NCBI GenBank assembly: GCA_905235575.1
Contig: CAJOLZ010000009.1
Location: 20,155 to 84,154, forward strand
DNA length: 64,000 nucleotides
Direction of reading: 5' to 3'
DNA from: an uncultured Bacteroidaceae bacterium
GTDB taxonomy: Bacteria > Bacteroidota > Bacteroidia > Bacteroidales > Bacteroidaceae
Positions 7,254 through 59,632 of this stretch are shown here, piece by piece (the stretch's first letter is position 1; each line of letters opens with the position of its first letter). Position numbers and translations under genes: made by a program. Below the pieces are notes generated by a model. That model was not told the origin of the DNA, searched no databases, and saw only the letters and a list, made by a program, of their open reading frames with translations.

Positions 7254-7546
7254 TGCGAGGGGTGTCTCGGACGGGCATGAGATGCAGTGAGAATGGATGG
7301 CCTACGCTGCGTTGCTGTGAAGTGTGGATTTCGACAGAATTCTAAGCGTCTGATTTACAGCGCTCCGATTTTCTGCATCATTTTCCTCTCGCCCGACATT
7401 TTCCCTCCGAAATGCACTTCTTCCGAAAACGCAGCGTGCTGCGACGGGCGTCGCAACGTGGTGCGACAGTCTGCGGAACACACCGAATTGCCGTTTCTCG
7501 AACTTCGGAACGAAATACGACAAACTGGGTGTAAGGATTATTTGCG
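7254..7546 (+). repeat. Dispersed intergenic element, long form, copy A
   Basis: This is the most diverged of four long copies of a repeat of about 290 bp in the window. Shared landmarks are a TGCGAGGGG-like left end, GTGAGAATGGATG at 7287, the 36-nt hairpin core at 7430-7465 and the right end GTAAGGATTATT. From 7287, 85 codons stay open and line up without indels with the other long copies. I treat it as a repeat and not as a gene. It lies between the GH109 gene and the riboswitch promoter. Confidence 0.7.
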
Positions 7547-7632
7547 TCCTCAGGCATCCGTCGAAGTGGAAGGCCTGCCGCTTAAATCCGCAGAAAAAGT
7601 GTCGCATGCTTGGCATTCTCGTCGAAATGGAG

Positions 7633-7640
7633 TAACTTTG
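7633..7640 (+). promoter_or_regulatory. Promoter -7 element driving the cobalamin riboswitch
   Basis: TAACTTTG matches the Bacteroidetes -7 consensus. A CTTG that resembles the -33 TTTG lies 20 bases upstream. Transcription would begin a few bases before the riboswitch, so this leader appears to be expressed on its own. Confidence 0.6.
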
Positions 7641-7644
7641 CATC

Positions 7645-7812
7645 GCAATTGGTTCGCTCCCCAGGGAGTGATTAAAAGGGAATGGGGTGAGAGTCCCCAA
7701 CTGTCCCGCAGCTGTAAGTCGTCCGTCGCAGAGATGGCAAACACAACGTCACTGAGATTTTTCGGGAAGACGTTTGCTACATCGACGACAAAGTCAGAAG
7801 ACCTGCCTTTTG
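7645..7812 (+). promoter_or_regulatory. Cobalamin (B12) riboswitch, orphan
   Basis: The leader shows the hallmarks of the cobalamin class in order. TTGGT lies near the 5' end and AAAAGGGAAT at 7674-7683. The sequence GGGGTGAGAGTCCCC follows. The B12 box ACTGTCCCGCAGCTGTAA is at 7700-7717. A variable arm comes next, and the closing GTCAGAAGACCTGCC is at 7793-7807. The family binds adenosyl- or other cobalamins and usually controls BtuB-type receptors or B12 genes in Bacteroidetes. No such gene follows. The next plus-strand frame is only 67 codons, and the next gene (8110) runs the other way. Confidence 0.9.
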
Positions 7813-7840
7813 CAGCGCTTCCACGCCTCTGGGGTTAGGC

Positions 7841-7856
7841 TAAGTCGCGCGACTTA
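7841..7856. repeat. 16-bp perfect palindrome after the riboswitch
   Basis: TAAGTCGCGCGACTTA is perfectly self-complementary and lies about 30 bases after the riboswitch. It is not followed by a T-run, so it does not look like an intrinsic terminator. It could be the expression-platform hairpin or a protein-binding site. Confidence 0.5.
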
Positions 7857-7885
7857 ACGAAAACAAATTGAAGAAAGAACCGCCG

Positions 7886-8089
7886 ATGGAGCTGACGTGC
7901 GCCGTCCCGTCCACTTTTTTCTGCGGTTCGCGGTGTAATTATCTCGATGCCGACCTCGCCGACTATGTCCTTCCTGTGCGTAGGACAAAACTATCTGCCT
8001 TTTTCGGCGAGCGGGCATCGGGATATTTTTCAAGCCATATCGGTACCCAGTACACTCATGTAAACCGGCTCATCGGGCTTGTCTGGAGA
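7886..8089 (+). CDS. Doubtful small ORF downstream of the riboswitch
   Basis: An ATG at 7886 opens 67 codons ending at a TAG at 8087-8089. The product is Cys- and aromatic-rich, has no signal peptide and resembles nothing I recognise. It overlaps a long imperfect stem (7946-7962 paired with 8003-8019). The open frame may be incidental to RNA structure, or a relic of a lost B12-regulated gene. It is listed because it is the only plus-strand frame the riboswitch could control. Confidence 0.2.
7946..8019 (+). ncRNA. Branched stem-loop behind the riboswitch
   Basis: GATGCC...CTCGCCGA (7946-7962) pairs with TCGGCGAG...GGCATC (8004-8019), leaving a small internal bulge. Inside it a second stem forms between GTCC (7967-7970) and GGAC (7983-7986). 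A short T-rich stretch (ATTTTT) follows the outer stem. It could end the riboswitch transcript, or belong to a regulatory RNA fused to the aptamer. No known RNA family was recognised. Confidence 0.4.
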
Positions 8090-8109
8090 TAGAACTTGGA
8101 TGTCAGTGC

Positions 8110-8844
8110 TCAGAGTATCTGCTTGATTTCGTGCAGCGAGCGTATTTCGTAGTCGACGATACCCTCGGTGTCGTGCTGCTCGTCGGGGTATCGGTTGAAG
8201 TAGATGGTGGCGATGCCGGCTTGATGGGCACCGCGTATGTCGGTCTCCAGGTTGTCTCCAATCATGATGGTGTCTTGTGGTGTGGCGCCTGTCTGGCTGA
8301 AAGCGTAGCGGAAGAAATCGGGGTGCGGCTTGTTGACGCCGGCGTCCTCCGAGAGGATGACGCTGTCTACGCGTCGCAGGATGTCGGATGCGGCGCGTAA
8401 CTTGCTGTATTGCACCTCGTGAAATCCGTTGCTGCAGATGTGTATGCGGTAGCCTCGCTGTCGCAGGTAGTCTGTCACTTCGTGGGCACCCTCAACGACA
8501 CCTGGCTTCACCTTGCAGAGGTCGAGAAAGCGGTCGCTCACCTTCAGACAGTAGTCCTCCGTGGCTGTGAGACCCTTGCCGTGTGAGAGTGGACGTCGGA
8601 AACGCTCCACAATCAGGTAGGGGCGTGTGATGTGGCCTTGTGCGTACTGTGTCCACAGGTCTATGTTCGTCTCCCAGTAGGGGACGGTGAAATCCTCCAG
8701 TCGCTCGAAGTAGCGACTCCATTCGAACTCGTCGAATAGTTCCCGAAGCGCTATGTTGGCATTGCCGAGCGTGTCGTACAGCGTATCGTCAAAATCGAGG
8801 AAGATGTTTCTTATCTCCGTACCTTTGTGCTCCATCGTCATCAT
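8110..8844 (-). CDS. HAD-family pyrimidine nucleotidase, YjjG type
   Basis: A 244-aa HAD phosphatase. Motif [10 protein letters not shown] lies near residue 16, motif II is the Ser in CSNGFHE, motif III the Lys in NKPHP, and motif IV is [12 protein letters not shown] helical cap lies between motifs I and II, as in YjjG/YfnB enzymes, which remove phosphate from (often non-canonical) pyrimidine nucleotides. The start at 8844 was chosen because it overlaps the upstream stop as TGATG, which suggests coupled translation with the Gfo/Idh gene. Two other in-frame ATGs follow within nine bases. Confidence 0.88.
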
Positions 8845-9839
8845 CACATCTTTCCTAAAATACGGTCCATCACCCAGTTGACGCTGGTCGAGCTGACGCT
8901 GTCGACGGTACATTCGGCGATGCCCTGGAGGTGTTCCACGACGTTGCGGATGAGCGGCATCTGTACGTAGGGCGGATTCGGCACTACTATCTGTTCTTCT
9001 CCTGCCGAGGTGTGCAGCGTGATGGGCTCGTAGGTATAGACGGAGAAGTGGAGCTGTCCGCGGTCGCCGGTGAGCACGATGCGGTCGGTGCGTGCGCTCT
9101 CGTGGCTGACGAAGCACCAGGAGCCGCTGCCGGGGAGGCCGTTGTGGAACTGGAAGCAGGCGCTGACACTGTCCTCGGTCTGATAGAGTCCGCCCAGGTT
9201 GGTGGAGTATCCTCGGGCACGTACGATGGGACCGAAGATGTTCTGCAGGATGTCTATCTGATGAGGCGCGAGGTCGTAGAAGTATCCTCCGCCGGCAATG
9301 TCACGCTGCACGCGCCAAGGCTGGCTCGTCTGGTTGTAGTCGAGGTCGCGCGGCGGGGCTGAGAAGAGCACCTGCACGCTGATGACGTTGCCGATGGCTC
9401 CCTGGCGTACAAGTTCTTTCACGCGCAGGAAATAGGGGAGCATGCGGCGGTAGTAGGCGACGAAGCAGGGGATGCCGGTCTGCTGACTGACGCGGTTGAT
9501 GCGTTGGCAGTCGAGGTAGCTGCTGGCGAGGGGTTTCTCGACGTAGACAGGTTTGCCGGCTTTCATGGCCATGATGGCATATGTGGCGTGCGACGAGGGC
9601 GGCGTGGCGATGTAGACGGCGTCCACCTGTGGGTCGTCGATGAGCTGTTGGGCATCGGTGTACCATCGGGGGATGTTGTGCCGCTCGGCATACGACTGTG
9701 CCTTTTCCCTGTTACGGCTCATGACGGCGCTGACGCTGGAGCCGGCAATCTGCGTGAAAGCAGGTCCGCTCTTCTTTTCGGTGGCTTCGCCGCAACCTAT
9801 GAAGCCCCAGTGGATGTGTCGGAGGTGAGTGGGTGTCAA
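8844..9839 (-). CDS. Gfo/Idh/MocA family oxidoreductase
   Basis: A 331-aa cytoplasmic protein without signal peptide. The N-terminal Rossmann motif is [10 protein letters not shown] (about 12-21). [12 protein letters not shown] and [11 protein letters not shown] follow, the conserved nucleotide-site and Lys-Pro motifs of the family. The C-terminal alpha/beta domain is complete. Substrates in this family are mostly sugars and cyclitols, and the sequence does not tell which. It is the first gene of a two-gene operon with the HAD nucleotidase. It is only distantly like the GH109 enzyme at 5626. Confidence 0.9.
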
Positions 9840-10181
9840 GGTGTGAGTGTTTTTTTATGATGGCGGATGATGTTTCGTATCTTATGAGGCTGGCTGACAG
9901 GCGCATCGGTGACGGTCGGAAGGAGACCGATGTGGGCAGCGCAGTTGTAGCACTGTGGAAGTACGTCTGTCGCACCGTGGTGCGAAGCCCGTCGCAGCGT
10001 GGTGCGCAGCCTGTCGCAGCGTGGTGCATTTCGCAGCCTGCCAAATTCGGCGAAACGGTTCGGGGAAAAGACGTCTTTTTTCATGCGTAATAATATATAA
10101 TGTAGGGCTCCGTCGGTTGACTTTGTCATCCTCTGTCGCGACTCGGCCGTTCAGACACGTTTTATTGCACTCGCAGCTCCA
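9840..10181. other. Gene-free gap with one hairpin repeat
   Basis: This 342-bp stretch between the Gfo/Idh start and the porin stop holds the hairpin repeat at 9971-10006 and its flanking half-copies up to about 10038. I see no other gene, no tRNA and no clear promoter in it. Confidence 0.6.
9971..10006. repeat. 36-nt hairpin repeat, copy b
   Basis: The left arm CGCACCGTGGTGCGAA and right arm GTCGCAGCGTGGTGCG are separated by GCCC, for 36 nt in total as at the other sites. Two further partial arms (CTGTCGCAGCGTGGTGCA) follow up to 10038. The stem has more mismatches than copies D, j and k. Confidence 0.7.
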
Positions 10182-12422
10182 TCAGTTGAAGAAATTCCAG
10201 CTCAGTCCGAAGTGGAACGTCAGTGGGTCGATGGGGTAGTGGGGTGCCCAGAAGGAGTGGCCGTCGCCTTCGTTGACATGGTTCACCGACAGGTAGAGAC
10301 GGCAGTGTTTCAGGAACATGTTCACATAGACATTCACGATGGGGTAGTTGCCTATCTTCACACGGGCGTAATTGGCATCCTGCGTGGCAAACTGTCCGAT
10401 GCTGGGCGCGTAGTCGGGTGCGTAGTACGATGTGAAGTAGCGCATGTCGCCTCCCACCTGCACCCGCAACACTTTGGCGACGTGGAACAGGAGGTATAGG
10501 TTGGTGTAGGCCGAGAAGTCGGGCAGCGGCAGCACGGTCTTCTCGGACGTCTTCTGATAGGTGAGCTCGTTGTCCCAGTGTACGGGACCGAATTTGAGGT
10601 TCTGTTCCAGTGTCGCGCTGAACACCTGTACGCTTCCGCTCTCCTGCATGACAGCCACGTCGTGGGTGTAGTCGGCAGTCAGCGTGCTCGTCGGTTCGGC
10701 TCCGTTCCTGAGTGTGTTACGTATTCCGAAGTAGGTGTAGTTCGTCATGTTCTCCACGCCGACCGTAAGGCGTGTCTTGGTGCGCCGCAGGTTGAGCGAC
10801 CCCATGAAGCGGGTGCGCAGTTCGCGGTCGAGGCCGGTATTGTCCCACCACGTGGCCTGGTTGTGATAGTGACGCAGATAGAACTCGGGCTTCTGGTGGT
10901 GGACATAGGCCTGCAGCTCCACGAGCAACGTGTCTTTCTTCCCGAGTTTCAGGTCGAGGTCGGCCTTTCCGTCGATGTTGAAGTCACCGACCTTCGGTCC
11001 CACCAGCCAGAACTCGCTGTCGGCCGTATAGTGGAACAGGCGTCCCTGCAGTCGGCTCAGCGTACCTCCCACGGAGATGTCGTTCTCTACGTATTTATGG
11101 TCCTTCATGATGTCCTCGCCGAGCATCTGGGGCAGTGTGTAGGTGTTCAGCTGATGTGTGCCGTAGATGGAGATTCCCGACTGTGCCCACTTGTTGAATC
11201 CCTCGCTCAGCGCCACGCCCACGGTGTTACGCAATCTCAGTGCGCGCGTCTCGTCCTTGACATCGTTCCACGAGCCGTAGTAGTGGTTCGTGTAGAAGTT
11301 CGAAGGCGTGTTGTGCGAGAGGTAGCCGTGTGTCAGGTGATAGACCTGCATGGTGTGGATGAAACTCGTCACCGGCACAAACTCCTGTGGGGTGTATAGC
11401 GAGTTGCGCCACTCCTGACGCAGCGAATCGACGGCCGCAGCCATGGCCACGCTGTCCTGACGCAGCACGGTGCGGACGCTGTCCGGGAGGTCGAGCAGCA
11501 ACGTGCTTGCGCTCGGTTCCTGAGGTTTGAGCGAGTCAGGCACTTCTATGTCGCGATAGAATCCCAGATTGTAGCGATGCGTCAGATAGTAGGTCTGTTC
11601 GTGGTTTCGGTTCCACGTGTCGGAGAGCGTTACAGGGATGTCCTTCGAACTGTATCGTTGCTGAAAGCTCTGCGGGTCTTCGATGTATCGGTCGTCTTCG
11701 ATACCTCCGTTCTCGCTCATCTTCAGGTGATTGATATTCAGATAGGCATGAATGTTGTATCGGTCGCCGCGATGATATCCGTAGAGTGTGCCCCCAAACT
11801 GGCTGTTGGCTTGGTTGTTGTAATAGCCGCGTCCGTAGAGGTAGTCCAGTTTGAAACCGATTCCGGCCAACTTGTTTATGTTGGTGGCAAAATAGGCCCT
11901 CACACGGTCCTGCCCGTTCTCGCGGTTTCCGCATTTGTGATAGGCGAGATTGGTGATGGGGCTCAGTGTGTTGGTGAAACGGAAATCGCTCAGCGAATGG
12001 CGGAAGTAGCTGTATGGTTCAACGAAGAAGATGTCGTCTGTCTTTTCGCGGAACAGGAAGATGCGGTTCAGACGCGGCGCACCCAGATTGCCCAGGAAGT
12101 TATACTGTCCAGTGTATCCCTCAGTGAGGGGAAAATTCTGGAAGTTGTGCACCACCGTGTCGTTGTTCTCTGCATCGATGACGGAGCCCAGTCGCGGTTC
12201 GATGCACCATTGGAACTGCCCGACGGGGATATTGCTCACCTCGCTGGTGTCGTTGCCCACCAGAAATCGGTCGCTGCCTCGTTTCTCGCCCCGGGAAGAA
12301 CGGTTGAAATCGTCCGACTGAAAGTCGTCGCCATAGTTATCAGCCCCATTGTATATCTGGGCTTGTGCGGAAAGGCACAGGCCGACACACAGGAAACCGA
12401 GGAGACGTAGGCGATTCTTCAT
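10182..12422 (-). CDS. Putative outer-membrane porin (Porin_10 family)
   Basis: A 746-aa protein with a signal peptide (cleavage after about residue 21, AQA). The first 60 mature residues are Asp/Ser-rich. The rest alternates polar and aromatic residues as in beta-barrels. It ends in a terminal Phe (LSWNFFN), the usual barrel C-terminal signal. This matches the Bacteroidetes putative-porin family, of unknown substrate. It begins 12 bases after the oxidoreductase gamma gene on the same strand, so it may be the last gene of that operon. Confidence 0.85.
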   Translation of the reverse strand: MKNRLRLLGFLCVGLCLSAQAQIYNGADNYGDDFQSDDFNRSSRGEKRGSDRFLVGNDTSEVSNIPVGQFQWCIEPRLGSVIDAENNDTVVHNFQNFPLTEGYTGQYNFLGNLGAPRLNRIFLFREKTDDIFFVEPYSYFRHSLSDFRFTNTLSPITNLAYHKCGNRENGQDRVRAYFATNINKLAGIGFKLDYLYGRGYYNNQANSQFGGTLYGYHRGDRYNIHAYLNINHLKMSENGGIEDDRYIEDPQSFQQRYSSKDIPVTLSDTWNRNHEQTYYLTHRYNLGFYRDIEVPDSLKPQEPSASTLLLDLPDSVRTVLRQDSVAMAAAVDSLRQEWRNSLYTPQEFVPVTSFIHTMQVYHLTHGYLSHNTPSNFYTNHYYGSWNDVKDETRALRLRNTVGVALSEGFNKWAQSGISIYGTHQLNTYTLPQMLGEDIMKDHKYVENDISVGGTLSRLQGRLFHYTADSEFWLVGPKVGDFNIDGKADLDLKLGKKDTLLVELQAYVHHQKPEFYLRHYHNQATWWDNTGLDRELRTRFMGSLNLRRTKTRLTVGVENMTNYTYFGIRNTLRNGAEPTSTLTADYTHDVAVMQESGSVQVFSATLEQNLKFGPVHWDNELTYQKTSEKTVLPLPDFSAYTNLYLLFHVAKVLRVQVGGDMRYFTSYYAPDYAPSIGQFATQDANYARVKIGNYPIVNVYVNMFLKHCRLYLSVNHVNEGDGHSFWAPHYPIDPLTFHFGLSWNFFN

Positions 12423-12434
12423 ACGGAACGGGTG

Positions 12435-12983
12435 TCAGTCGTTTATCAGTTCGATGATTTCCATGCCCTTACGCAGCGCTTTCTCATTCATGGGAATGAG
12501 ATGATGGTGGCGTTCTGGCAATGTCTTGCGCAGTCCTTGCAGTACGTTCTCGATGGTTACGATGGGGCGCACTTTGAGCAATCCGCCCAGCACAAGCATG
12601 TTGAAAGCCTTCACGTTCTCCATCTCAGCAGCTGCGTCCATAGCGTTGATGCGATAGATGTTGAGGTCTTTCCGCGTGGGGGGCTTGCAGATGCCGTACT
12701 CGTCGTAGATGAGTGTACCGCCCGGACGAATGGTCGGTTCGAAGCGCTCGAGCGAAGGCTGGTTCAGAATGATGGCTGTGTCAAATGTGCTCAGGATGGG
12801 ACTCGATATGGATTGGTCGCTGATGATGACGGTCACGTTGGCCGTACCGCCGCGCTGTTCCGGACCGTATGCAGGCATCCACGAAACTTCGCGACCCTCC
12901 ATCAGGGCGCTGTAGGCCAGAATCTTTCCCATCGAGAGTACACCCTGTCCGCCGAATCCGGCTATGATAAGTTCTTCTTTCAT
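12435..12983 (-). CDS. 2-oxoacid:ferredoxin oxidoreductase, gamma subunit
   Basis: A 182-aa protein starting at 12983, where homology begins (MKEELIIAGFGGQGVLSMGKIL). The GFGGQG motif and YGPEQRGGTANV are typical of the gamma domain of 2-oxoglutarate or branched-chain 2-oxoacid ferredoxin oxidoreductases. With the alpha, beta and ferredoxin subunits next to it, it forms a KorABCD/VorABCD-type complex that decarboxylates a 2-oxoacid to the acyl-CoA and reduces ferredoxin. The substrate cannot be told from the sequence. It follows the beta gene by 22 bases. Confidence 0.92.
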   Translation of the reverse strand: MKEELIIAGFGGQGVLSMGKILAYSALMEGREVSWMPAYGPEQRGGTANVTVIISDQSISSPILSTFDTAIILNQPSLERFEPTIRPGGTLIYDEYGICKPPTRKDLNIYRINAMDAAAEMENVKAFNMLVLGGLLKVRPIVTIENVLQGLRKTLPERHHHLIPMNEKALRKGMEIIELIND

Positions 12984-13005
12984 TGTGTGAAAGGGCTTGT
13001 GTAGT

Positions 13006-13779: not shown

Positions 13780-13803
13780 TTCCTTATTCTTATTCAGTTT
13801 TCT

Positions 13804-14043
13804 TCATCCCATGAAGCGTACGAAGAACTCCACGATTTTCAGTACCATGCCCAACGCAATAACCGAAAGTGCAGCCAGGTGATGTTGCCCGTCGGCATAG
13901 TACCATACGATGCCGACAAAGGCCAGCAACAGGAATGCGATGTTGAGCATGCGACGCACTCCGTCGTTCGAACCACGTTTCTTGCGCTTACGACGTATCT
14001 GTTCCACTTGTTCTTCCAAGGTGAGTTCTTCCGTTTTGCTCAT
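13804..14043 (-). CDS. Small two-helix membrane protein in the oxidoreductase operon
   Basis: A 79-aa protein. A highly charged N-terminus (residues 1-30, with a KRKKRG patch) is followed by two hydrophobic segments (about 32-50 and 56-76). It sits between the alpha and beta subunit genes, with gaps of 5 and 24 bases, and so is translated with the complex. The family is unrecognised. It could tether or modulate the ferredoxin-reducing complex at the membrane, but nothing in the sequence proves that. Confidence 0.8.
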   Translation of the reverse strand: MSKTEELTLEEQVEQIRRKRKKRGSNDGVRRMLNIAFLLLAFVGIVWYYADGQHHLAALSVIALGMVLKIVEFFVRFMG

Positions 14044-14048
14044 GAAGT

Positions 14049-15140: not shown

Positions 15141-15158
15141 GGCTAAATTGTAGTTGGC

Positions 15159-15712: not shown

Positions 15713-15723
15713 TCCTGCGGTTC

Positions 15724-21038: not shown

Positions 21039-21232
21039 CGGCTTTTTTTAGATATATGATAGTGCGCGCGTCGTTTTTTATGTTTTTTTAGTATTGAGAG
21101 GCCACTTCTGCCTTCCCCAGACCTCTGTGTTCTGCAGGCGATGGCACCGCGACCGATGTATTGTACAGCATGACTTGAAATCTTTAATATGTAATGATAT
21201 CGGAAGATGCTCTATCCTCAGCTGAAGCTGGG

Positions 21233-21510
21233 GGCATCGAAAAACTGTGTGAAGAAAAGTGAGAATGGATGAGCCTCGCTGCGCAGGAGTGAAGAGTTCG
21301 AAACGACGGATTTGCAACCTCTTGATTATCAACACTTGCAAATTTTGCATTTTCCTCGTCTCTGCCCGAAAATTCCCGTCAAAACGAGCTTCTTCCGAAA
21401 ACGCACCGTGCTGCGACACCCGTCGCACCACGTTGCGACAAGCTGCACATCGTGCCGCGCCCCGAGAAAAAGAACCTTGCGACATTCTGCGCTCAGAAAA
21501 GTGTAAACAT
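21233..21510 (+). repeat. Dispersed intergenic element, long form, copy C
   Basis: It begins around GGGGCATCGAAAAACTG and continues through GTGAGAATGGATG (21259) and the block CTTGATTATCAACA. The 36-nt hairpin core lies at 21402-21437. An 85-codon frame from 21259 aligns with the other copies without gaps. The right end (GTGTAAACATA) is more diverged. It occupies the middle of the 701-bp gap 21003-21703. The rest of that gap holds the promoters on each side and a short piece (around 21104-21120) resembling the end of the second repeat family. Confidence 0.7.
21402..21437. repeat. 36-nt hairpin repeat core, copy C
   Basis: Arms CGCACCGTGCTGCGAC and GTCGCACCACGTTGCG flank the loop ACCC. There are two mismatches in the 16-bp stem. 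Confidence 0.7.
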
Positions 21511-21628
21511 AACATCATGCGTTCTTTCCTCGTTTTTCTCATATCGATGAAATTGACTTCCTATGGAAAATTAGGACGAGAAATACAATATCAGGACAGA
21601 CGGTTTCCTCAGTTTTTCCGTGTTTCGT

Positions 21629-26876: not shown

Positions 26877-26900
26877 ATTTATTTTAGCTTTTCACCAATT

Positions 26901-27085
26901 GTCATTCTTCAACACCCGACTTTGTCGGGCAGAAGTGGCAAAGCCGAGCGCAGAGCATAATGAAGAATCTTTAAGAGGTGGGCTTCCTGTGTGAGATTCT
27001 TCGGCCTTTGGTCGCTCAGAATTATAATTCTGTATTGTGCGCTCGGTTATGCCACTTCTGCTTCTGCAATGAGGGTTCGCGGAAT
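26901..27085. mobile_element. MITE-like repeat, family 2, copy 1
   Basis: The first 55 bp (26901-26955) recur at 59675-59729 with two mismatches. A small hairpin CCCGACTTTGTCGGG lies at 26915-26929. The segment 26930-26953 is repeated in inverted orientation at 27037-27060 with three mismatches. This gives a 131-bp unit with 24-bp terminal inverted repeats. There is no coding potential of its own. It resembles a miniature inverted-repeat element and has no transposase in the window. Confidence 0.55.
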
Positions 27086-27246
27086 TACACATTATGAATT
27101 GGGAAACGTATGCAGCCGAGGTTCGTTTTACATGTAATGTCCTTTGCAAACATTCTTTGCCACAACGAGACCGAAGAGCGTATAGAGAATTCCTGAAATA
27201 GATATTTTGTAAGGAAAAAAGATTAGTTGTTGGGCGTCGTCTCTGC

Positions 27247-27533
27247 GAGGGACATCGAAAACTGGTGTGAGGAAATGTGAGAATCGGTGACCCTCGTTGC
27301 GCTGTGGTGAGGGCTGAAAAACAACGTGCCTGCAACCCCTTGATTATCAGTAATTGCAAATTTTTCGTTTGCACTCTCGCTCCCGAGAAATTTGCGAAGG
27401 AAAACGCTTTTGGCGAAAACGCACCGTGGTGCGACGCCCGTCGCAGCACGGTGCGTCATTCATCGCAACGGCCTGCGTCATCGATTTTGGAACTCTTCGT
27501 CAAAAGAGATTCTTTGAAATGTAAGGATTATTG
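27247..27533 (+). repeat. Dispersed intergenic element, long form, copy D
   Basis: The best-preserved plus-strand copy, 287 bp, runs from GAGGGACATCGAAAACTG to GTAAGGATTATTG. Its hairpin core is 27420-27455. From GTG 27277 an 85-codon frame is open, ending in a stop at 27532-27534. The same frame is open in copies A, C and I. Against copy I, substitutions fall on all three codon positions about equally, so it does not behave like a selected gene. It lies just upstream of the nqr promoter. Confidence 0.75.
27420..27455. repeat. 36-nt hairpin repeat core, copy D
   Basis: CGCACCGTGGTGCGAC, loop GCCC, GTCGCAGCACGGTGCG. The 16-bp stem has a single mismatch at position 10. Confidence 0.8.
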
Positions 27534-33506: not shown

Positions 33507-33541
33507 AAGAAAAAGGGAGGTCAGGCCTCCCTTTTTCTTAT
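33507..33541 (+). terminator. Intrinsic terminator of the nqr operon
   Basis: AAGAAAAAGGGAGG pairs with CCTCCCTTTTTCTT around a short loop. The arm ends in a T-run on each strand, so it can work in both directions. A near copy stands at 36465-36492. Confidence 0.85.
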
Positions 33542-33936
33542 GTCCCACAGCGGTCAACTTCATCTTCGGACACTCCCGGAATGCAGATGCATCGCAACTC
33601 AACCCCATGGCGACACACACCGTTCATCCGCTGTTGTGCCGCCCTTTTTTGTCCCTTGCCGAAACGCACCGTGCTTTTCATTGTGTCGCACCACGTTGCG
33701 TTGGCCGTCGCACCACGTTGCGACAGGCGTCGCAGCACGGTGCGTTTTCAACCCGAATAGGTCTTTGGGATTTATGTTAGAGGGACAAATGTTGTGAGCA
33801 AGGCGTCGGCGGCAAGATGCCGCAAGAGTTGTTGTTATGGTATAAGAAGACTTCAAAAACAAGCGGAAAGGCACCATTGTCGGCCTAAAGACCGATTAGG
33901 GTTTATTTCACGAGGTCAAAGAAAAGTGTTTTTTCC
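33542..33936. other. Gene-free gap between the nqr terminator and the next promoter
   Basis: Apart from the 131-bp repeat (33618-33748), about 190 bases up to the promoter at 33937 show no gene or structure that I recognise. The open frames here are translations of the repeat. Confidence 0.6.
33618..33748. repeat. 131-bp direct repeat, left copy (contains hairpin repeat e)
   Basis: It is identical to 36512-36642 except for one base (T here, C there). Hairpin-family arms fill the second half, with a 36-nt core at 33709-33744. The first half (CACCGTTCATCCGCTG...) is found only in these two copies. The two copies bracket the 2.76-kb segment that carries nhaD. Confidence 0.85.
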
Positions 33937-36511: not shown

Positions 36512-36642
36512 CACCGTTCATCCGCTGTTGTGCCGCCCTTTTTTGTCCCTTGCCGAAACGCACCGTGCTTTTCATCGTGTCGCACCACGTTGCGTTGGCC
36601 GTCGCACCACGTTGCGACAGGCGTCGCAGCACGGTGCGTTTT
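36512..36642. repeat. 131-bp direct repeat, right copy (contains hairpin repeat f)
   Basis: One mismatch against 33618-33748. The 36-nt hairpin core is at 36603-36638 and is followed by TTTT. It fills much of the 332-bp gap 36405-36736, whose remainder holds the terminator and the HD gene promoter. Confidence 0.85.
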
Positions 36643-36724
36643 TAAGCAGAGCGAATCAAGCGCATTTCTCATCCTCCGAAACCATTTTCCGACAGCAGGA
36701 TTTCCGTTTCACACCAAAAAGTAG

Positions 36725-41777: not shown

Positions 41778-41837
41778 GAATACCTCTCTGCGGAGTACCA
41801 CGCTTCTACGCCCGACGCACCACGGTGCGAAGGGCAA

Positions 41838-41873
41838 CGCACCACGCTGCGACAGCCGTCGCAACGTGGTGCG
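41838..41873. repeat. 36-nt hairpin repeat, copy g, with T-run
   Basis: CGCACCACGCTGCGAC, loop AGCC, GTCGCAACGTGGTGCG, then TTTTTT. One mismatch in the stem. An extra palindrome CGCACCACGGTGCG precedes it (41816-41829). Its place between the convergent BRCT-like and phospholipase-D genes suggests it may end transcription. Confidence 0.75.
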
Positions 41874-41910
41874 TTTTTTGAATGCTTTAAATCCAAATGA
41901 ACGATTCGGG

Positions 41911-45528: not shown

Positions 45529-45591
45529 GTGCTGGGATGAAATGTTTACATCTCAAGCGTTCTATTTTGAAGGAAAACTCTTCGGACTCCG

Positions 45592-45644
45592 ATGCAACGT
45601 GCTTTTCGGGCTGACGCACCACGGTGCGTTGACCCGAAAAGCGT
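45592..45644. repeat. Hairpin repeat, nested variant h
   Basis: GCTTTTCGGG (45601-45610) pairs perfectly with CCCGAAAAGC (45633-45642). Inside, CGCACCACGGTGCG (45615-45628) forms a second perfect palindrome. The inner part is shared with the other hairpin repeats. The outer arms are found only here. Confidence 0.6.
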
Positions 45645-45771
45645 GCTCTTAATGTTGCGAGACGGCGATATTTCCGGGCAAACCTCGGCTTGCTCAAAAA
45701 TATACGATTCTCAGGAGTCTTGATAATCAGGTACTTAATTTCTCATCAAACCGAAAAAGGCATAAAAAAGT
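45645..45771. other. Remaining gap between the MaoC-like gene and the ligA terminator
   Basis: Between the nested hairpin and the terminator I see no gene, promoter or further repeat. Confidence 0.5.
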
Positions 45772-53290: not shown

Positions 53291-53333
53291 AGCTTTTGTT
53301 TTTTATGAATTTGGGGTTATCCTTTTCGGGTGG

Positions 53334-53364
53334 CAAAGTTACAAATAAGTGAGCAAAGCACAAA
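53334..53364 (-). promoter_or_regulatory. Promoter for pgk
   Basis: TTTG (53364-53361), a 19-base spacer, TAACTTTG (53341-53334), minus strand. Confidence 0.75.
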
Positions 53365-53489
53365 AGGAAAAACAAAATTTTTCTTTTCGTGGTTTCGAAC
53401 GAGCGTAACTTCGACGTCCCACAGAGTTACGCCCGGCTTTAGTCTACGTTAGTGGGTGTTAAAGAATGATAGTCCTTCCAGCCGCTCAA

Positions 53490-53777
53490 TAATCTTTACA
53501 TACTCCGCTTCCTGCTTCGTCCGGAAATTCAGAAAACGGTGTTGGAGCCTGTTGCGAGGCGTGACGCAGCACGTTGCGACGGGTGTCGCACCACGGTGCG
53601 TTTTCGTCAGATGCGTTTTCCTGCGCAAATTTTTCGAGGACGAGCAGCTCGATGCAAAATTTGCGATTGCTGAGAATCAAGCGGTTGCGGATGCGTCGTT
53701 TTTCGGCCTTCACCACAACGCAACGAGGGGCACCGATTCTCACTGCTTCTCACAGCGGTTTTCGATGCCCCTCGCAG
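53490..53777 (-). repeat. Dispersed intergenic element, long form, copy I
   Basis: The minus-strand long copy, 288 bp, very like copy D. Left end GAGGGGCATCGAAAACCG, right end GTAAAGATTATTGAG. The hairpin core lies at 53565-53600. An 85-codon frame (53743-53486) has the same start, length and final four residues as copy D. It sits in the 537-bp gap 53291-53827 between pgk and nth. I see no gene in the rest of that gap. Confidence 0.75.
53565..53600. repeat. 36-nt hairpin repeat core, copy I
   Basis: CGCAGCACGTTGCGAC, loop GGGT, GTCGCACCACGGTGCG. The stem carries several mismatches and the total length is again exactly 36. Confidence 0.7.
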
Positions 53778-53827
53778 ATGGGTTCAATTCGATATGGTCC
53801 GATTCTTTTACATAAACGCGATTCCTG

Positions 53828-54463
53828 TCACACGCCCACACGTCGGCATACGTCGAGCAGGAAACAGTTCTCGCATCGCGGTCGGCGTGCCTGACACACG
53901 TAGCGGCCGTGCAGGATGAGCCAATGGTGGGCGGTGGGTATGATGTCGTCGGGGATGTGTCGCACCAGTTCTCGCTCCACGCTGAGCGGTGTGGTGCATT
54001 TCTGCGAAACCAGTCCGATGCGGTGGCTCACGCGGAACACGTGGGTGTCGACAGCCATGCGCGCCTTCTGGAAGATGACGGCCTGTATGACGTTGGCCGT
54101 CTTACGTCCCACGCCCGGAAGCCGTTCCAGCTCTTCGCCTGTCGAGGGCACTTCGCCGCCGTATTCGCGCATCAGCATCTGCGCCATGCCCACCAAGTGA
54201 CGCGCTTTGTTGTTGGGGTAGCTCACGCTGCGGATGTATTCGAACAGCACTTCGGGCGTGGCCAGCGCCATGGCTTCGGGAGTGGGGTAGTCCTCGAAGA
54301 GACGTGGCGTGACCTGATTGATGCGGCGGTCGGTGCACTGCGCGCTCAGGATGGTTGCCACCAGCAACTGGAACGGGTTCTCGTAGTGCAACTCCGTCTC
54401 TGCCACGGGCATGGCTTCCTGGAAGCGTGCTATCACTTGTGCGTAAAGCTCTTTTTTTGTCAT
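53828..54463 (-). CDS. nth: Endonuclease III
   Basis: A 211-aa base-excision glycosylase/AP lyase for oxidised pyrimidines. The helix-hairpin-helix LPGVGRKTA holds the catalytic Lys, and VDTHVFRVSHR the catalytic Asp. The 4Fe-4S cluster Cys pattern CX6CX2CX5C closes the protein. The start at 54463 fits the family N-terminus (MTKKELYAQVIARFQEAMP). It lies 44 bases after the arabinofuranosidase gene on the same strand. Confidence 0.95.
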   Translation of the reverse strand: MTKKELYAQVIARFQEAMPVAETELHYENPFQLLVATILSAQCTDRRINQVTPRLFEDYPTPEAMALATPEVLFEYIRSVSYPNNKARHLVGMAQMLMREYGGEVPSTGEELERLPGVGRKTANVIQAVIFQKARMAVDTHVFRVSHRIGLVSQKCTTPLSVERELVRHIPDDIIPTAHHWLILHGRYVCQARRPRCENCFLLDVCRRVGV

Positions 54464-54507
54464 CGGTGTGTGTCTTATGCGGCTTCGTGTGGGCGTCGTC
54501 TCTACGG

Positions 54508-56058
54508 TCATTTCACTTTCAGCACCACGATGCTTCCGACGGGCATTTTCACCGTCAGTGTGCCGTTCTTCAGTCGGGCATCCTTGAACTCGACAGGTTT
54601 CACCACGTCTGTATGCTCAAAGTCGTTGAAGTCGTTCATCCGCTTGCTCGTCAGCACTTTACCTGTCACCTCGTGTGCCGTTGCTCCCTCTATGCCCACC
54701 TGTACGGTCTGTTCCTTCGTCAGGCTTGTGTTGGCCATCGCCACGACGAGTGAGCCATCCTTGGCGCGTGCTGCCGTGGCGGAGATGAGGGGTATGCTGT
54801 GGCCGTTGCTGGCCTTGACAGAATCGCATCGCAGGTCGAGCGGCAGGTGTGTGGCCTCCTGAAAATCTTTATACATTTCGAAGACGTGGTAGGTGGGTGT
54901 CAGCACCATGTGCCCGGTGCCTTTCTGGTCGGTGAGAATCATGGCCTGCAGCACATTCACCATCTGTGCGATGTTGGCCATGCGCACGCGGTCGGTGAAT
55001 TTATGATAGATGTTCAGCATCAGTGCGGCCACCATGGCGTCGCGCATGCTGTTTTGCTGGTACAGGTGTCCGGCGATGGTTCCCGGCTCTTCGTCCCACC
55101 ATGTTCCCCACTCGTCCACCATCAGTCCGATGCGTTTCTGTGGGTCGGTCTCGTCCATAATACGGCAGTGGCGGCGTATCACGTTTTCCACGTCGAGACA
55201 TTTGTCGAGTGTCAGCAGGTATTCGTCGTCGGAGAAGGCGGTGGCCTTGCCCTTGCGTCCCCAGTCGCGCACGGTGTAGTAGTGGACCGACAGTGCGTTC
55301 ATGCGCTGACCTATGTTCTGCATGAGCACCCGTGTCCAGTTGTAGTCGTAGTCGGAGGCTCCCGAGGCGATGCGATAGAGGCGGTTGCCGGGCTGGTCGC
55401 GCAGGTAGGTGTTGTATCTGCGGAACTCGTTCGAGTAGTATTCGGGCGTCATGTTTCCTCCGCATCCCCATGCCTCGTTGCCGATTCCGAAGTATTTCAC
55501 GCGCCACGGCTTCTCGCGCCCGTTCTGTCGTCTCAGGCGAGCCATGGGCGTGTCACCCTCGCTGGTCATGTATTCCACCCATTGTGCCATCTCCTGTACG
55601 GTGCCGCTTCCGACGTTTCCGCTGATGTAGGGCTCGCATCCCAACATCTCGCACAGGTTCAGGAACTCGTGTGTGCCGAACGAATTGTCCTCGATGGTGC
55701 CTCCCCAGTTGTTGTTGCGCAGCGTCGGGCGCTCGTTCTTCGGACCTATTCCGTCACGCCAGTGATAGTCGTCGGCAAAGCATCCGCCGGGCCATCGCAA
55801 CACCGGCACCTGCAGTTTCTTTAGTGCTTCCACGACGTCGGTGCGATATCCGTTGACGTTGGGAATGGGGGAGTTCTCGCCCACCCACAGGCCGCCGTAG
55901 ATGCAGCTGCCGAGGTGTTCGGCAAACTGACCGTAGATTTCCTTGTTGATTTTGTACTTGCCCTGGTCGGCATGAATGGTCACCTGGGCTTCTTGGGCAC
56001 AGACAGTCGTTGCCAGCAAAAGGCCGGCAAGCAGGGTGCTAAGTGTCTGGAGTTTCAT
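54508..56058 (-). CDS. GH51 alpha-L-arabinofuranosidase, secreted
   Basis: A 516-aa protein with a signal peptide (cleavage after CAQ, about 22). Catalytic acid/base Glu195 lies in GIGNEAWG and nucleophile Glu316 in [11 protein letters not shown], both intact. A C-terminal beta domain follows (about 400-516). The family removes arabinose from arabinoxylan and arabinan, so the bacterium probably uses plant polysaccharide. No susC/susD genes are next to it. A full promoter lies 24 bases upstream. Confidence 0.95.
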
Positions 56059-56081
56059 GGGACTAACGATATAAATGTATG

Positions 56082-56113
56082 CAAAAATACGAAGAAGTGC
56101 GCAGAATAGCAAA
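56082..56113 (-). promoter_or_regulatory. Promoter for the GH51 gene
   Basis: TTTG (56113-56110), a 20-base spacer, TATTTTTG (56089-56082), minus strand. Confidence 0.7.
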
Positions 56114-56172
56114 ACTTGCCCCGATTTTCTCGGAGTTGAAGGCCGCGTACTCAATAAAACCTCGAAAATCGT

Positions 56173-56203
56173 TTTGAAAATTGCGGAAAACGCCCTACCT
56201 TTG
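56173..56203 (+). promoter_or_regulatory. Promoter for the DUF4886 gene
   Basis: TTTG (56173-56176), a 19-base spacer, TACCTTTG (56196-56203). It rules out the ATG at 56207, which lies in the expected transcription start. Confidence 0.7.
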
Positions 56204-56233
56204 CCCATGTATAACCCCGAAACAATTCACAAC

Positions 56234-57145
56234 ATGAAACGTATTTTTTCTTTCGGACTGAGTTTCCTGCTCGTACTCTCAGCCTTTGCCGCCGACCCTG
56301 CCCATGTGCGGGTGCTCTCCATCGGCAACTCTTTCAGCCGCGATGCCTTCTCTTATGTGCCTTTCCTGATAGAAGAACTGGCGCCCGGCACGAAGGTGGA
56401 CTTCTGTATCCTTTACATCGGCGGCTGTTCGCTGGAGCGTCATTACCAGAACATGAAGAGCGGTGAAGCGGCCTACGAGTACGATATCTTCAGCAGCGAG
56501 GTGGGCCGATGGACCATGGAGCGCGACGTCTCACTGGAGAAAGGTGTCATGCAGCAGGACTGGGACATCATCATCCTGCAGCAGCAGAGCGCCCGTTCGC
56601 GCTACTACGACACGTATCAGCCCTACCTGAACGAACTGCTCTCCTACCTCGGTCGTGTGCGTCCCAACGCCACCCCGGCATGGTTGCTCACACAGGCCTA
56701 CGGCACTGGTTTCCGCGACTTGGGCGACATGCCCACCGACGAGATGTGGGCACGAATTGACGAGTCGAGCCAGCGTGTCATGGACGAGACGGCGGTGAAG
56801 ATTCTGATTCCTGCCGGCACCGCCATACAGAATGCGCGCTACACCGTGCTCGACCGTCTGGGTCAGGCCGGACATCTGGTGAACGACGGCTTCCATCTGC
56901 AGGAAGGCATACCGCCTCTCATCGAAGGTCTCGTGACTACACAGGTGGTTCTGAAGCACTACGGTATTGATATCGACGTGCAGAAGAGCCGGTTGAAAAT
57001 CACTCCCGAATGGCGTGCGGAGCGCAACACACCCCAACCCAACGGTCAGCCCGAGGAGGCGTCGGACGATGAATATCGCATCGCGCGGCAGTGTGCACAG
57101 TGGGCCATCGACAACCCGTGGCAGCTGACAGTGGTCGAGGAGTAG
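56234..57145 (+). CDS. DUF4886 SGNH-hydrolase-like secreted protein
   Basis: A 303-aa protein with a signal peptide (MKRIFSFGLSFLLVLSAFA). VLSIGNSFSRDAFSYVPFL carries the GNS block I of SGNH esterases. YIGGCSLERH is block II-like, WDIIILQQQS block III, and GHLVNDGFHLQEG may hold the final Asp/His. DUF4886 is common in Bacteroidetes and is probably a carbohydrate esterase. It diverges from the GH51 gene, which fits joint use on plant glycans. Confidence 0.87.
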   Translation: MKRIFSFGLSFLLVLSAFAADPAHVRVLSIGNSFSRDAFSYVPFLIEELAPGTKVDFCILYIGGCSLERHYQNMKSGEAAYEYDIFSSEVGRWTMERDVSLEKGVMQQDWDIIILQQQSARSRYYDTYQPYLNELLSYLGRVRPNATPAWLLTQAYGTGFRDLGDMPTDEMWARIDESSQRVMDETAVKILIPAGTAIQNARYTVLDRLGQAGHLVNDGFHLQEGIPPLIEGLVTTQVVLKHYGIDIDVQKSRLKITPEWRAERNTPQPNGQPEEASDDEYRIARQCAQWAIDNPWQLTVVEE

Positions 57146-57162
57146 TTGCATCAGATACGAAA

Positions 57163-57198
57163 CGCTCCGTGGTGCGACGCCTGTCGCAGCACGGAGCG
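57163..57198. repeat. 36-nt hairpin repeat, copy j, compensatory variant
   Basis: CGCTCCGTGGTGCGAC, loop GCCT, GTCGCAGCACGGAGCG. Where other copies have A paired with T at stem position 4, this copy has T paired with A, so both arms changed together. A further arm GTCGCAGCACGGTGCG follows up to 57221. Confidence 0.8.
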
Positions 57199-57325
57199 TT
57201 GCCTGTCGCAGCACGGTGCGTTAGCCGGAAAAGCGTGGTGCGTGGAATTTTGCCCCGAATCGGCCATTAGAATTTTCCGAATCGGCCATTCGAATTTATA
57301 TATAAAGACAGGAGCGAAAGCAAAC

Positions 57326-57367
57326 AAAAACGGTTAAGAGCATTTTCATTTGCCCTTAACCGTTTTT
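57326..57367. terminator. Bidirectional intrinsic terminator
   Basis: AAAAACGGTTAAG and CTTAACCGTTTTT form a perfect stem. It serves the DUF4886 gene from the left and the Tyr-rich lipoprotein gene from the right. Confidence 0.8.
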
Positions 57368-57388
57368 CTTTTAGCCTGAGTTGATTAC

Positions 57389-57997
57389 TTACTTCTCGCC
57401 GTTCACGCTGTTCCAGCGGTTGCCTCGGCGGACGATGCGTCCCTCGGGTTGCGGCTCTTCGCCGGCGCTGCGCGATGGAGCATAGAGGGGATATTCGTCG
57501 TAATAGTAGTAGTAATAGTCTCGCTCTCCGAGATAGTACGACCAATCGTCGTATATATCCACTTTCACGAGGTCGAATCCGGTGTGGCTGTCACCCAGTC
57601 GTCCCATGAAGTGACCGTTCCGCAGGCGATAGTCATAGATATAGGTGTCCAGCTGGCGGTCGTAGGGGTACTCCAGATAGAGGACGCCGTCTCTGACGTA
57701 CCAGTAGAACTTGTAGTACATATATTTGTAGGGACCGTATCGGTAGTAGTCACGTTGCCATCCGACACCTCTTGTGGAGAAAGATGAGTTTGGCTCGAAA
57801 TAGATATCAGACTCGGTGGAGTAGTATGTCGTGACTCGTCCCAGACGGTCTTCGTAGTCGTAGAACATGCCGAAATCTCCGAACCATTGTCCCGAGAGGG
57901 TCCATGACATTTGGGTATCTTCGTCGCACGACGTCAGGCCCGTCAGAGCCACCATCGTCATCAGCCCCCATAGCGCTTTTTGTAGTTTCTTGTACAT
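57389..57997 (-). CDS. Tyr-rich hypothetical lipoprotein
   Basis: A 202-aa protein with a lipoprotein signal (MVALTGLTSC, Cys24). The mature part starts SWTLSGQWFGDFG, which resembles lipocalin-like small barrels in Bacteroidetes. It is very rich in Tyr and Asp, with six Tyr in a row near residue 168. Function unknown. A TAACTTTG -7 element lies at 58031-58038. It diverges from radA. Confidence 0.82.
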   Translation of the reverse strand: MYKKLQKALWGLMTMVALTGLTSCDEDTQMSWTLSGQWFGDFGMFYDYEDRLGRVTTYYSTESDIYFEPNSSFSTRGVGWQRDYYRYGPYKYMYYKFYWYVRDGVLYLEYPYDRQLDTYIYDYRLRNGHFMGRLGDSHTGFDLVKVDIYDDWSYYLGERDYYYYYYDEYPLYAPSRSAGEEPQPEGRIVRRGNRWNSVNGEK

Positions 57998-58104
57998 AGT
58001 GAAATTTATTTTTAGGTTTGTTTCCATTCGCAAAGTTAGACAAAAAAAACCGTACCGCAGAGGGAAATACACAAAAGAATGTAGGGCAATCCCTATTTAT
58101 TTCG

Positions 58105-58112
58105 TAAATTTG
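58105..58112 (+). promoter_or_regulatory. -7 element for radA
   Basis: TAAATTTG, 33 bases before the ATG. No -33 match is seen. Confidence 0.4.
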
Positions 58113-58145
58113 CGCAGGAAATAATATATTATATAGGAAGCAACG

Positions 58146-59537
58146 ATGCCGAAGGACAAGACAATCTACGTCTGCGACTACTGCGGACAGGAGAGTGTGC
58201 GGTGGGTGGGCAAGTGCCCCGCCTGCGGTCGCTGGAACACCATGAAGGAGATGACCATACGTGCCGAGCGTCCCGTGGCGGCAGCCACCAAGGCCGCCCT
58301 CAAGGCGGCAGGGCAGACCGACGAGCGCAGGGCACGTCCCGTGGCGGTGGGCGAGATACGTGCCGACGAAGAGCCACGCATGGATATGCACGACGACGAA
58401 CTGAACCGCGTGCTGGGAGGCGGACTGGTGCCCGGCAGCCTGGTCCTGCTGGGCGGTGAGCCGGGCATCGGCAAGAGCACCCTCGTGCTGCAGACCGTCC
58501 TCAATCTCCCCGACCGCCGCGTGCTCTACGTGAGTGGCGAGGAGAGCGCGCGCCAGATCAAGTTGCGTGCCGACCGCCTGGGGCTGAAACCCGGTGCCTC
58601 GCTATACATCCTGTGCGAAACGTCGCTCGAGCAGATTTTCCTCCAGATAGAGGAGATGCAGCCCGACCTGGTCGTCATCGACTCCATCCAGACCATCCAG
58701 ACCGAGGGTGTCGAGTCTTCGCCCGGCAGCCTGACACAGATTCGCGAATGCGCCGCCGCCCTGCTCAAGTATGCCAAGGGTGGGGGAGTGTCCATCCTGC
58801 TCATAGGCCACATCAACAAGGAGGGCACGCTGGCAGGCCCCAAGGTGCTGGAGCACATCGTGGACACCGTGCTGCAGTTCGAGGGCGACCAACACTACCT
58901 CTACCGCATCCTGCGGAGCATCAAGAACCGCTTCGGCAGCACCAGCGAGCTCGGCATCTACGAGATGCGACACAGCGGGTTGCGACAAGTCTCTAACCCC
59001 AGCGAACTGCTGCTCACCGAAGGTCGCGACGGACTCTCGGGCGTCTCCATCGCCTGCGCCATCGAGGGTGTACGTCCCTTCCTCATCGAGACACAGGCAC
59101 TCGTCAGCACGGCCGCCTATGGCACCGCCCAGCGAAGCACCACCGGTTTCGACGGCCGCCGGCTGAACATGCTGCTGGCCGTACTCGAGAAACGTGTAGG
59201 CTTCAAGCTGGCGCAGAAAGACGTGTTCCTCAACATCGCCGGAGGTCTCCGCGTCACCGACCCGGCCATAGACCTCAGCGTGATGGCCGCCGTGCTCAGC
59301 TCCAACGGAGATATGCCCATCGAGACCGACGTGTGCATGGCCGGCGAAGTGGGCCTGAGCGGCGAGATACGTCCCGTGGCGCGCATCGAACAGCGCATTG
59401 CCGAGGCACAGAAACTCGGTTTCAGCCGCATGCTCCTGCCTGCCCACAACATGCAGGGCATCAACCCCCGAAACTACACCATCGAACTGGTGCCCGTGCG
59501 CCGCGTCGTAGAGGCTGTCCGCGAACTCTTCGGTTGA
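58146..59537 (+). CDS. radA: DNA repair protein RadA
   Basis: A 463-aa protein. The four-Cys zinc finger (Cys 10, 13, 24, 27), a RecA-like ATPase with Walker A GGEPGIGKST (Lys110), the RadA motif KNRFG and a C-terminal Lon-like domain (VFLNIAGGLRVTDPAIDLSVMAAVLSS) are all present. It helps branch migration in recombinational repair. A hairpin repeat begins 11 bases after its stop. Confidence 0.97.
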   Translation: MPKDKTIYVCDYCGQESVRWVGKCPACGRWNTMKEMTIRAERPVAAATKAALKAAGQTDERRARPVAVGEIRADEEPRMDMHDDELNRVLGGGLVPGSLVLLGGEPGIGKSTLVLQTVLNLPDRRVLYVSGEESARQIKLRADRLGLKPGASLYILCETSLEQIFLQIEEMQPDLVVIDSIQTIQTEGVESSPGSLTQIRECAAALLKYAKGGGVSILLIGHINKEGTLAGPKVLEHIVDTVLQFEGDQHYLYRILRSIKNRFGSTSELGIYEMRHSGLRQVSNPSELLLTEGRDGLSGVSIACAIEGVRPFLIETQALVSTAAYGTAQRSTTGFDGRRLNMLLAVLEKRVGFKLAQKDVFLNIAGGLRVTDPAIDLSVMAAVLSSNGDMPIETDVCMAGEVGLSGEIRPVARIEQRIAEAQKLGFSRMLLPAHNMQGINPRNYTIELVPVRRVVEAVRELFG

Positions 59538-59548
59538 GTGCCGAAAAA

Positions 59549-59632
59549 CGCACCGTGCTGCGACGCCCGTCGCACCACGGTGCGTTGCCTGTCGCAGCAC
59601 GGTGCGACGCCCGTCGCACCGCAGTGCGTTTT
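59549..59632. repeat. Hairpin repeat, copy k, tandem arms with T-run
   Basis: The core 59549-59584 is CGCACCGTGCTGCGAC, loop GCCC, GTCGCACCACGGTGCG, with one mismatch. Two more arms follow (GTCGCAGCACGGTGCGAC and GTCGCACCGCAGTGCG), ending in GTTTTTTG. It may double as the radA terminator. It occupies part of the 363-bp gap 59538-59900. Confidence 0.8.

Follow-up and report, generated by a model that had tools for sequence, protein, structure and literature searches.

Short arrays of a 14-bp imperfect palindrome, with one unit every 22 bp, lie between the genes of an uncultured Bacteroidaceae bacterium (GenBank assembly GCA_905235575.1), and congeners keep this period while using other letters. 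We describe the arrays in a 64,000-nucleotide stretch of contig CAJOLZ010000009.1 (positions 20,155 to 84,154; contig C9 in our numbering), hereafter the window, and in a main sample of 464 kb made up of the window plus 400 kb of the same genome (G000), a 2.49-Mb draft in 65 contigs that is 87.6% complete. Tentatively, we read them as predicted cooperative docking sites for a sequence-specific DNA-binding protein, likely marking or insulating the boundaries of transcription units. The usual accounts of dispersed palindromes in bacteria invoke a transposase or termination. An exact period kept while letters change among congeners separates spacing from sequence in evolution, and allows a predicted protein lattice along the whole chromosome, or else a new mechanism of copying, to be put to the test.

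A 14-mer scan defined the basic unit as CGCANC(GT|AC)GNTGCG, recurring every 22 bp, or two turns of DNA, with 8-nt linkers near ACRSSYGT. Two phased units with at most one mismatch matched 782 times in the 2.49-Mb genome, and the reversed control did not match at all. The main sample contained 95 sites, namely 21 single units, which were left out of all later counts, and 74 arrays of two (n=10), three (n=44) or four units (n=20). Array density is about one per 6 kb, and the genome-wide total is estimated at about 400 arrays by density and about 500 by pair counts. Among 133 consecutive strict units less than 120 bp apart, spacing was 22 bp in 126 and 44 bp in five, with 14 and 67 bp seen once each; a looser tally gave 146 at 22 bp, 76 at 44 bp, 16 elsewhere and none at 20, 21, 23 or 24 bp. 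Unit positions 1-4, 6, 9 and 11-14 were conserved at 93% or more, a level partly built in by the requirement that 10 or more of 12 fixed positions match. Variation fell at positions 5 and 10, and the centre was GT or AC in 208 of 232 units. Neighbouring oriented units pointed the same way in 96 of 132 pairs and were inverted in 36, and the linker frequently ended in CGT ahead of the next unit's C, spelling CGTC.

Spacing, number of units and place are retained, and the letters vary. The two-unit word pattern with its 782 matches in its own genome had none in 40 relatives. With two mismatches allowed, 22 of 139 genus genomes (G000 included) contained matches, many showing other words at the same period. 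A wider shape, CGCNNCRYGNNGCG, occurred in phased pairs in 28 of the 139 (27 of 138 congeners), with other words and up to 45 matches each; as its reversed control also matched six of the 139 genomes, one to four times each, counts this low carry little weight. Beyond its own genome, the shape had no match in 392 genomes drawn across the order. Genome G259, from another genus, gave 40 matches to the reversed control but no match to the true pattern. In a de novo search, period-22 tandem repeats were intergenic in 45 of 45 cases in G000 and in 42 of 43 and 21 of 21 in the sampled congeners G053 and G123, and intergenic repeats of periods 20, 21, 23 and 24 summed to 0, 5 and 1, respectively; other short periods, such as 14, occur between genes too. 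Twenty further congeners (349 kb) had 13 repeats at period 22 and 0, 3, 0 and 1 at 20, 21, 23 and 24, and 20 genomes of other genera (309 kb) had 2, 0, 2, 2 and 0 at periods 20 to 24. Outside the long open frames of 80 named relatives, period 22 was listed 27 times (a few entries overlap), followed by 15 (11 times), 16 (10), 21 (8) and 23 (7). Relatives are mostly named as Bacteroidaceae, Prevotellaceae or Bacteroidales, and many come from ruminants. Both G053 and G123 have several word families. Because relatives keep the 22-base period with other letters, the arrays are likely candidates for docking sites of a protein whose preference shifts between species.

Congeners G017, G133, G145 and G001 also carry 23-nt tandem repeats whose units have a common ATACTA core (L063:8067-8143, L069:8639-8709, L066:38-126 and L064:4672-4714), possibly a further class of dialect whose period is 23 nt. 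One viral contig, IMGVR_UViG_3300035156_000241 (L040:5612-5647), has two units spaced by 22 bp, CGCATCACGGTGCG and CGCACCACGGTGCG, with very similar letters, perhaps candidate repressor operators. A viral origin of the arrays was among the readings rejected; the observation behind it was this one IMG/VR contig.

The arrays take two forms. Class I is a cassette of about 88 bp with four units and A-tract and T-tract ends, the outer unit being degenerate at one end. Its consensus came from 62 arrays oriented by their tract, class II arrays included and the 12 of 74 without a tract excluded, and the array ends AAAACGCACC...GGTGCGTTTT are inverted repeats in it. Class II is a 284-bp composite around an array, with 19 long matches in the main sample by profile search; at 14 of these the next downstream gene runs in the same direction. 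Its flanks are constant, with no evident inverted repeat at its ends. A MAFFT alignment of 15 full copies and one partial copy had a single 1-base insertion within columns 7-281, and the full copies kept their words at a mean identity of 46% in the columns taken as variable and 60% across all columns. When the two blocks were sought by exact match, with 64-81 bp permitted between them, G000 gave 17 matches, all 17 spaced 73 bp, and 138 congeners gave none. That such diverged copies keep both words and spacing suggests selection in place. We rejected class II as protein-coding (no codon periodicity, no common open frame) and as structured RNA, as its 12 predicted pairs all lay within the array and none of the 12 had changed on both sides.

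The window contains the following features (strand given where assigned):
7256..7539, plus strand, class II composite of 284 bp, 94 bp ahead of a cobalamin riboswitch
7430..7465, array of two units within the class II composite at 7256-7539
9971..10028, array of three units, class I by exclusion from class II
21230..21511, plus strand, class II composite of 282 bp, upstream of a riboflavin synthase-like gene that has two lumazine-binding domains
21402..21459, array of two clear units and one degenerate unit, in class II
27246..27529, plus strand, class II composite of 284 bp, upstream of an nqrA-like gene
27420..27477, array of two clear units and one degenerate unit, in class II
33507..33539, plus strand, separate intrinsic-terminator-like hairpin after an nqrF-like gene, with the array over 100 bp farther on
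33662..33749, class I element of about 88 bp with a degenerate unit, units at 33687, 33709 and 33731, and a T-tract
36556..36643, class I element with units at 36581, 36603 and 36625, in a 139-bp stretch 97% identical to 33618-33756
41794..41879, class I element between convergent genes, with a degenerate outer unit, units at 41816, 41838 and 41860, and a T-tract; congener G123 lacks an array in the orthologous gap, which measures 36-45 bp
45541..45758, minus strand, partial and degenerate class II copy whose one intact unit (45615-45628) sits in a nested hairpin
53491..53774, minus strand, class II composite of 284 bp
53565..53600, array of two units in class II
57163..57220, array of three units, class I, with an A-T to T-A double change in units 1 and 2
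59549..59628, array of four units, class I, bounded by an A-tract and a T-tract, 11 nt past a stop codon

The riboswitch (Rfam RF00174, 112.7 bits) occupies 7633-7824 on the plus strand, 94 bp downstream of the class II copy, and was the only known RNA family in the window at gathering scores.

Placement was scored against gene calls from our own open reading frame (ORF) caller (356 genes, 88% coding). A preliminary description of the window had placed every copy between genes, and this is true of its ten sites and of 69 among the 70 arrays that could be placed in the main sample; the remaining one lies inside a called gene, and four more are at stretch ends. The 69 arrays occupy 69 of 288 gaps, and no gap holds two, although 10-12 doubles were expected under four random-placement nulls (minimum 2-5). 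Convergent gaps of at least 100 bp were occupied in 18 of 23 cases. From 400 bp upwards, divergent gaps were occupied in 16 of 19 cases and tandem gaps in 16 of 20, and none of 23 divergent gaps below 400 bp had an array; gap length in part results from the insert itself. No array was closer than 55 nt to a start codon. Class I, taken here as every array that no class II match covers, had 53 placed members (among them the array inside a called gene), with 21 in convergent, 23 in tandem and 9 in divergent gaps; the convergent share (21/53) compares with about 12% predicted from gap length. The 17 class II arrays comprised 7 in divergent, 9 in tandem and 1 in convergent gaps.

The same sequences had been described earlier as a palindrome with arms of 16 nt around a loop of 4 nt, exactly 36 nt long at ten sites. 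All ten cores are present and begin where reported, but each consists of two adjacent units from an array that has a 22-bp period and two to four units, and in the 36-nt frame position 10 is not Watson–Crick paired with position 27 in any of the ten. The nested variant reported at 45601 is real, and is a single unit within a long hairpin. Folding of nine window stretches (the arrays at 9971 and 36581 left out) gave z-scores of -4.2 to -6.5 in seven and of -1.2 and -1.1 in the remaining two, which agrees with a dispersed extragenic family capable of forming hairpins. Same-orientation neighbours were complementary at variable positions less often than shuffled ones (6 of 50 versus 14.2; 8 of 46 versus 13.2), opposite-orientation neighbours showed no excess (8 of 21 versus 8.7; 2 of 15 versus 4.8), and within units positions 5 and 10 paired in 80 of 232 versus 95 after shuffling, so that pairing is not favoured there. 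On unit orientation and neighbour complementarity, the 36-nt hairpin was rejected as the unit. Among 101 deviations at conserved positions, 17 were compensated in any other unit of the array versus 6.8 expected (reached in 12 of 2,000 shuffles) and 10 in the neighbouring unit versus 4.2 (97 of 2,000 as high); two were compensated within the same unit, cases that the unit shuffle cannot assess. The double change at 57163 (CGCTCC...GGAGCG), earlier offered as support for selection on pairing, is genuine and carried by units 1 and 2; with 17 of 101 deviations compensated elsewhere in the array, it is one of several between-unit cases. The excess of compensating changes lies between units, and the 36-mer is not supported as the selected unit. 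Compensation between units may stem from base pairing along the entire array or from inverted copying as the DNA replicates.

Such folding and compensation are also what one would look for in bidirectional intrinsic terminators or 3'-end hairpins, in which the array RNA folds and, with the T-tract, halts transcription from either side. The convergent enrichment of class I fits this explanation, and so does the short distance, at most 39 nt, from the upstream stop to the start of 11 of the 23 class I arrays that lie in tandem gaps. Class I also showed an exit-side bias of T-tracts in tandem gaps (exit only 12, entry only 3, both 4, neither 4; p = 0.035) and in a count of sides in G000 (36 of 65 exit sides versus 14 of 41 other sides; p = 0.046). 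With both classes pooled, however, tandem gaps had T-tracts on 17 of 32 exit and 13 of 32 entry sides (p = 0.45), G053 showed no exit bias (19 of 38 versus 19 of 48; p = 0.39), and in G123 a T-tract was present on 0 of 38 sides. The proposal of a terminator set, made in the preliminary description, is therefore left with a weak orientation bias in G000 and none in two congeners. The T-run sites it placed directly after stop codons lie, by our ORF calls, at different distances past the preceding stop: 11 nt for 59549, 38 nt for the array starting at 41816 and 176 nt for that starting at 36581. Arrays moreover coexist with ordinary terminators: gene ends with an array 40-120 nt away had their own terminator in 6 of 22 cases versus 6.3 in matched array-free ends, ends with an array farther than 120 nt away in 9 of 14, and ends with one closer than 40 nt, where there is little room, in 0 of 27. 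A masked count at convergent ends (3 of 40 with class I, against 11 of 32 lacking an array) had suggested that arrays replace terminators; the unmasked, length-matched count (6 of 22 versus 6.3) did not, and this idea was rejected. Also weighing against terminators are the arrays between divergent genes (9 of the 53 in class I, 7 of the 17 in class II); a 22-bp phase is not required for termination, and none of the 12 predicted class II pairs changed on both sides. We therefore consider termination unlikely as an explanation; it may be a by-product in this species, and the data do not make it the property common to these species' arrays.

Array positions are not strongly conserved. In the sampled G123, 29 gaps had conserved neighbours, two of them with an array in G000; measured by tblastn ends, these two are 133 versus 36 bp and 292 versus 186 bp, or about 97 and 106 bp longer in G000. 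Downstream of the nqrF-like gene, G000 and G123 alike have an ordinary terminator-like hairpin followed by arrays with different words; the G123 array falls just outside the 350-nt limit of our survey of the 74 relatives with sufficient sequence at this gene, in which no repeat occurred at lags of 14-35 other than 22 and 23. Upstream of the nqrA-like gene, 68 relatives had a period-22 repeat in two cases and lags of 21, 42 and 45 in one each. On these three comparisons, ancestral positions in common are not supported. The window also has a 139-bp direct repeat (33618-33756 and 36512-36650, 97% identical), array included, bracketing a segment with a citrate-transporter-family gene and a second gene that we could not assign; in G123 the flanking genes match close together without the segment, which looks like one gained next to an array.

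The two gaps that are longer where an array is present, the near-copies at 33618 and 36512, inverted-repeat ends and words confined to one genome among those searched are all compatible with a selfish non-autonomous mobile element without host function, of the miniature inverted-repeat transposable element (MITE), BrickBuilt or REPIN kind (paired repetitive extragenic palindromes, REPs), its transposase lost, unassembled or of an unrecognised family. In G053, too, copies of one word family are mostly 82-94% alike over about 85-112 bp in mostly gap-free alignments. We regard this as a serious but less probable alternative to docking sites. A search of three transposase families found no match in G000 to Y1_Tnp (PF01797; positive in 19 of 41 genomes and 5 of 14 controls), DDE_Tnp_1 or rve, which is weak evidence because the assembly is a draft; the genome has two tyrosine recombinases. 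Such draft genomes often lack insertion sequences. No target duplication was evident by eye around the arrays, a visual check of the consensus, and no close strain with empty sites was found. A selfish element would also have to account for zero doubles in 69 gaps, and for class II copies that have diverged widely yet keep words and spacing, which is unexpected for dead copies.

The docking-site reading would account for these features as follows. A protein would dock cooperatively on the 22-bp-phased units, and bound arrays would mark or insulate transcription-unit boundaries; its preference would shift from species to species along with the words, and copies would spread as short non-autonomous cassettes of about 88 bp (class I) or 284 bp (class II). 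A protein lattice would require the 22-bp phase, whereas a hairpin does not (four units, 284-bp composite), and we therefore rank a predicted protein-binding boundary array first, then a selfish cassette, then termination. A bolder version is doubtful: a genus-wide, phase-locked 22-bp address code at most long transcription-unit boundaries, with an invariant period and a species dialect, read by a fast co-evolving DNA-binding protein that would organise or insulate the chromosome.

Several observations weigh against docking sites, besides the selection of units by their match to the fixed positions. We identified no binding protein for the arrays, and one protein could hardly switch words at hundreds of sites simultaneously. 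Between-unit compensation and strong folding fit a hairpin function too. Positions are not conserved, as the two gaps about 100 bp shorter in G123 illustrate, and within 350 nt after the nqrF-like gene a period-22 repeat was present in three and a period-23 repeat in one of the 74 relatives. The rule of one array per gap has exceptions: among long gaps, at least two period-22 arrays share 4 of 9 divergent and 1 of 19 tandem gaps in G053 and 1 of 24 tandem gaps in G123, and one gap in G000 has a second period-22 array with an unrelated word. In gapped BLAST alignments, class II had 259 gaps to 3,176 mismatches, similar to other intergenic repeats (35 to 388), so the indel-free character of class II rests on block spacing and the MAFFT alignment.

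No earlier description of these arrays appeared among the literature matches listed; they resemble REPs and BrickBuilt yet fail defining features of both. Porphyromonas gingivalis, the host of BrickBuilt, belongs to the order Bacteroidales. BrickBuilt is described as a MITE of intergenic 23-nt tandem repeats, with 19 arrays of 1 to 22.8 units, a leader and tail of up to 285 and 318 nt, predicted long stem-loops and no BLASTn match outside the species (PMC4596501). Both systems are tandem repeats between genes (here 69 of 70 placeable arrays) whose periods are almost equal, with predicted stem-loops and words confined to one species among those searched. Where BrickBuilt has a leader and tail with small terminal inverted repeats, class II has constant flanks with none evident at its ends, and class I has A-tract and T-tract ends. 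The arrays here differ from that account (PMC4596501) in having exactly 22-nt rather than 23-nt direct repeats (22 in 126 and 44 in five of 133 spacings, none at 20, 21, 23 or 24), two to four palindromic units, some 400-500 arrays, and the same period with other words in congeners. With REPs, bacterial interspersed mosaic elements (BIMEs) and REPINs, as described in the literature (PMC3116915, PMC3733652), they have in common short extragenic palindromes in many copies (782 pair matches), with family-specific words and often in multiples. REPs carry a GTAG or CGTC tag at one end, and here CGTC is often spelled where the linker meets the next unit. The earlier suggestion of a REP/BIME-type family is not upheld: the REP-associated tyrosine transposase (RAYT)-like Y1 enzyme sought in the genome gave no match, inverted doublets are not the main unit (36 of 132 pairs, most neighbours running the same way), the 22-bp phase is rigid, and there is a class II composite. 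CGTC-tagged REPs are described as apparently without a dedicated transposase and reported from five phyla including Bacteroidetes; they are said to be predominantly head-to-head dimers with 8-9 bp stems (PMC3733652), whereas here units are tandem and phased with species-specific arms.

Species-specific, dispersed and extragenic words could also be self-recognition tags for DNA uptake or exchange, with a receptor that prefers its own word, as in the dialects of the DNA uptake sequences (DUS) of Neisseriaceae; we think this very improbable. DUS are short single words occurring about once per kb, whereas the arrays here are phased and occur about once per 6 kb, and to our knowledge there are no phased arrays among DUS. 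The likeness lies in related species carrying different dispersed words, as the published account of DUS dialects describes (PMC3630211).

Other repeats lie near the arrays in the window. At 57254-57299, shortly past the 57163 array, lies a further 22-nt tandem repeat whose word, CCGAATCGGCCATTAGAATTTT, is unrelated; similar motifs occur one to three times per sample in congeners and relatives and were absent from the other-genera sample. Another dispersed repeat, TTGTCATTCTTCAACACCCGAC..., is found at 26899-26955 and 59673-59729 (96% identical), with more copies near arrays in the main sample. A long open frame at 59953-63999 contains a 78-nt (26-residue) repeat, which we take to be possibly of the BspA-like surface-protein type.

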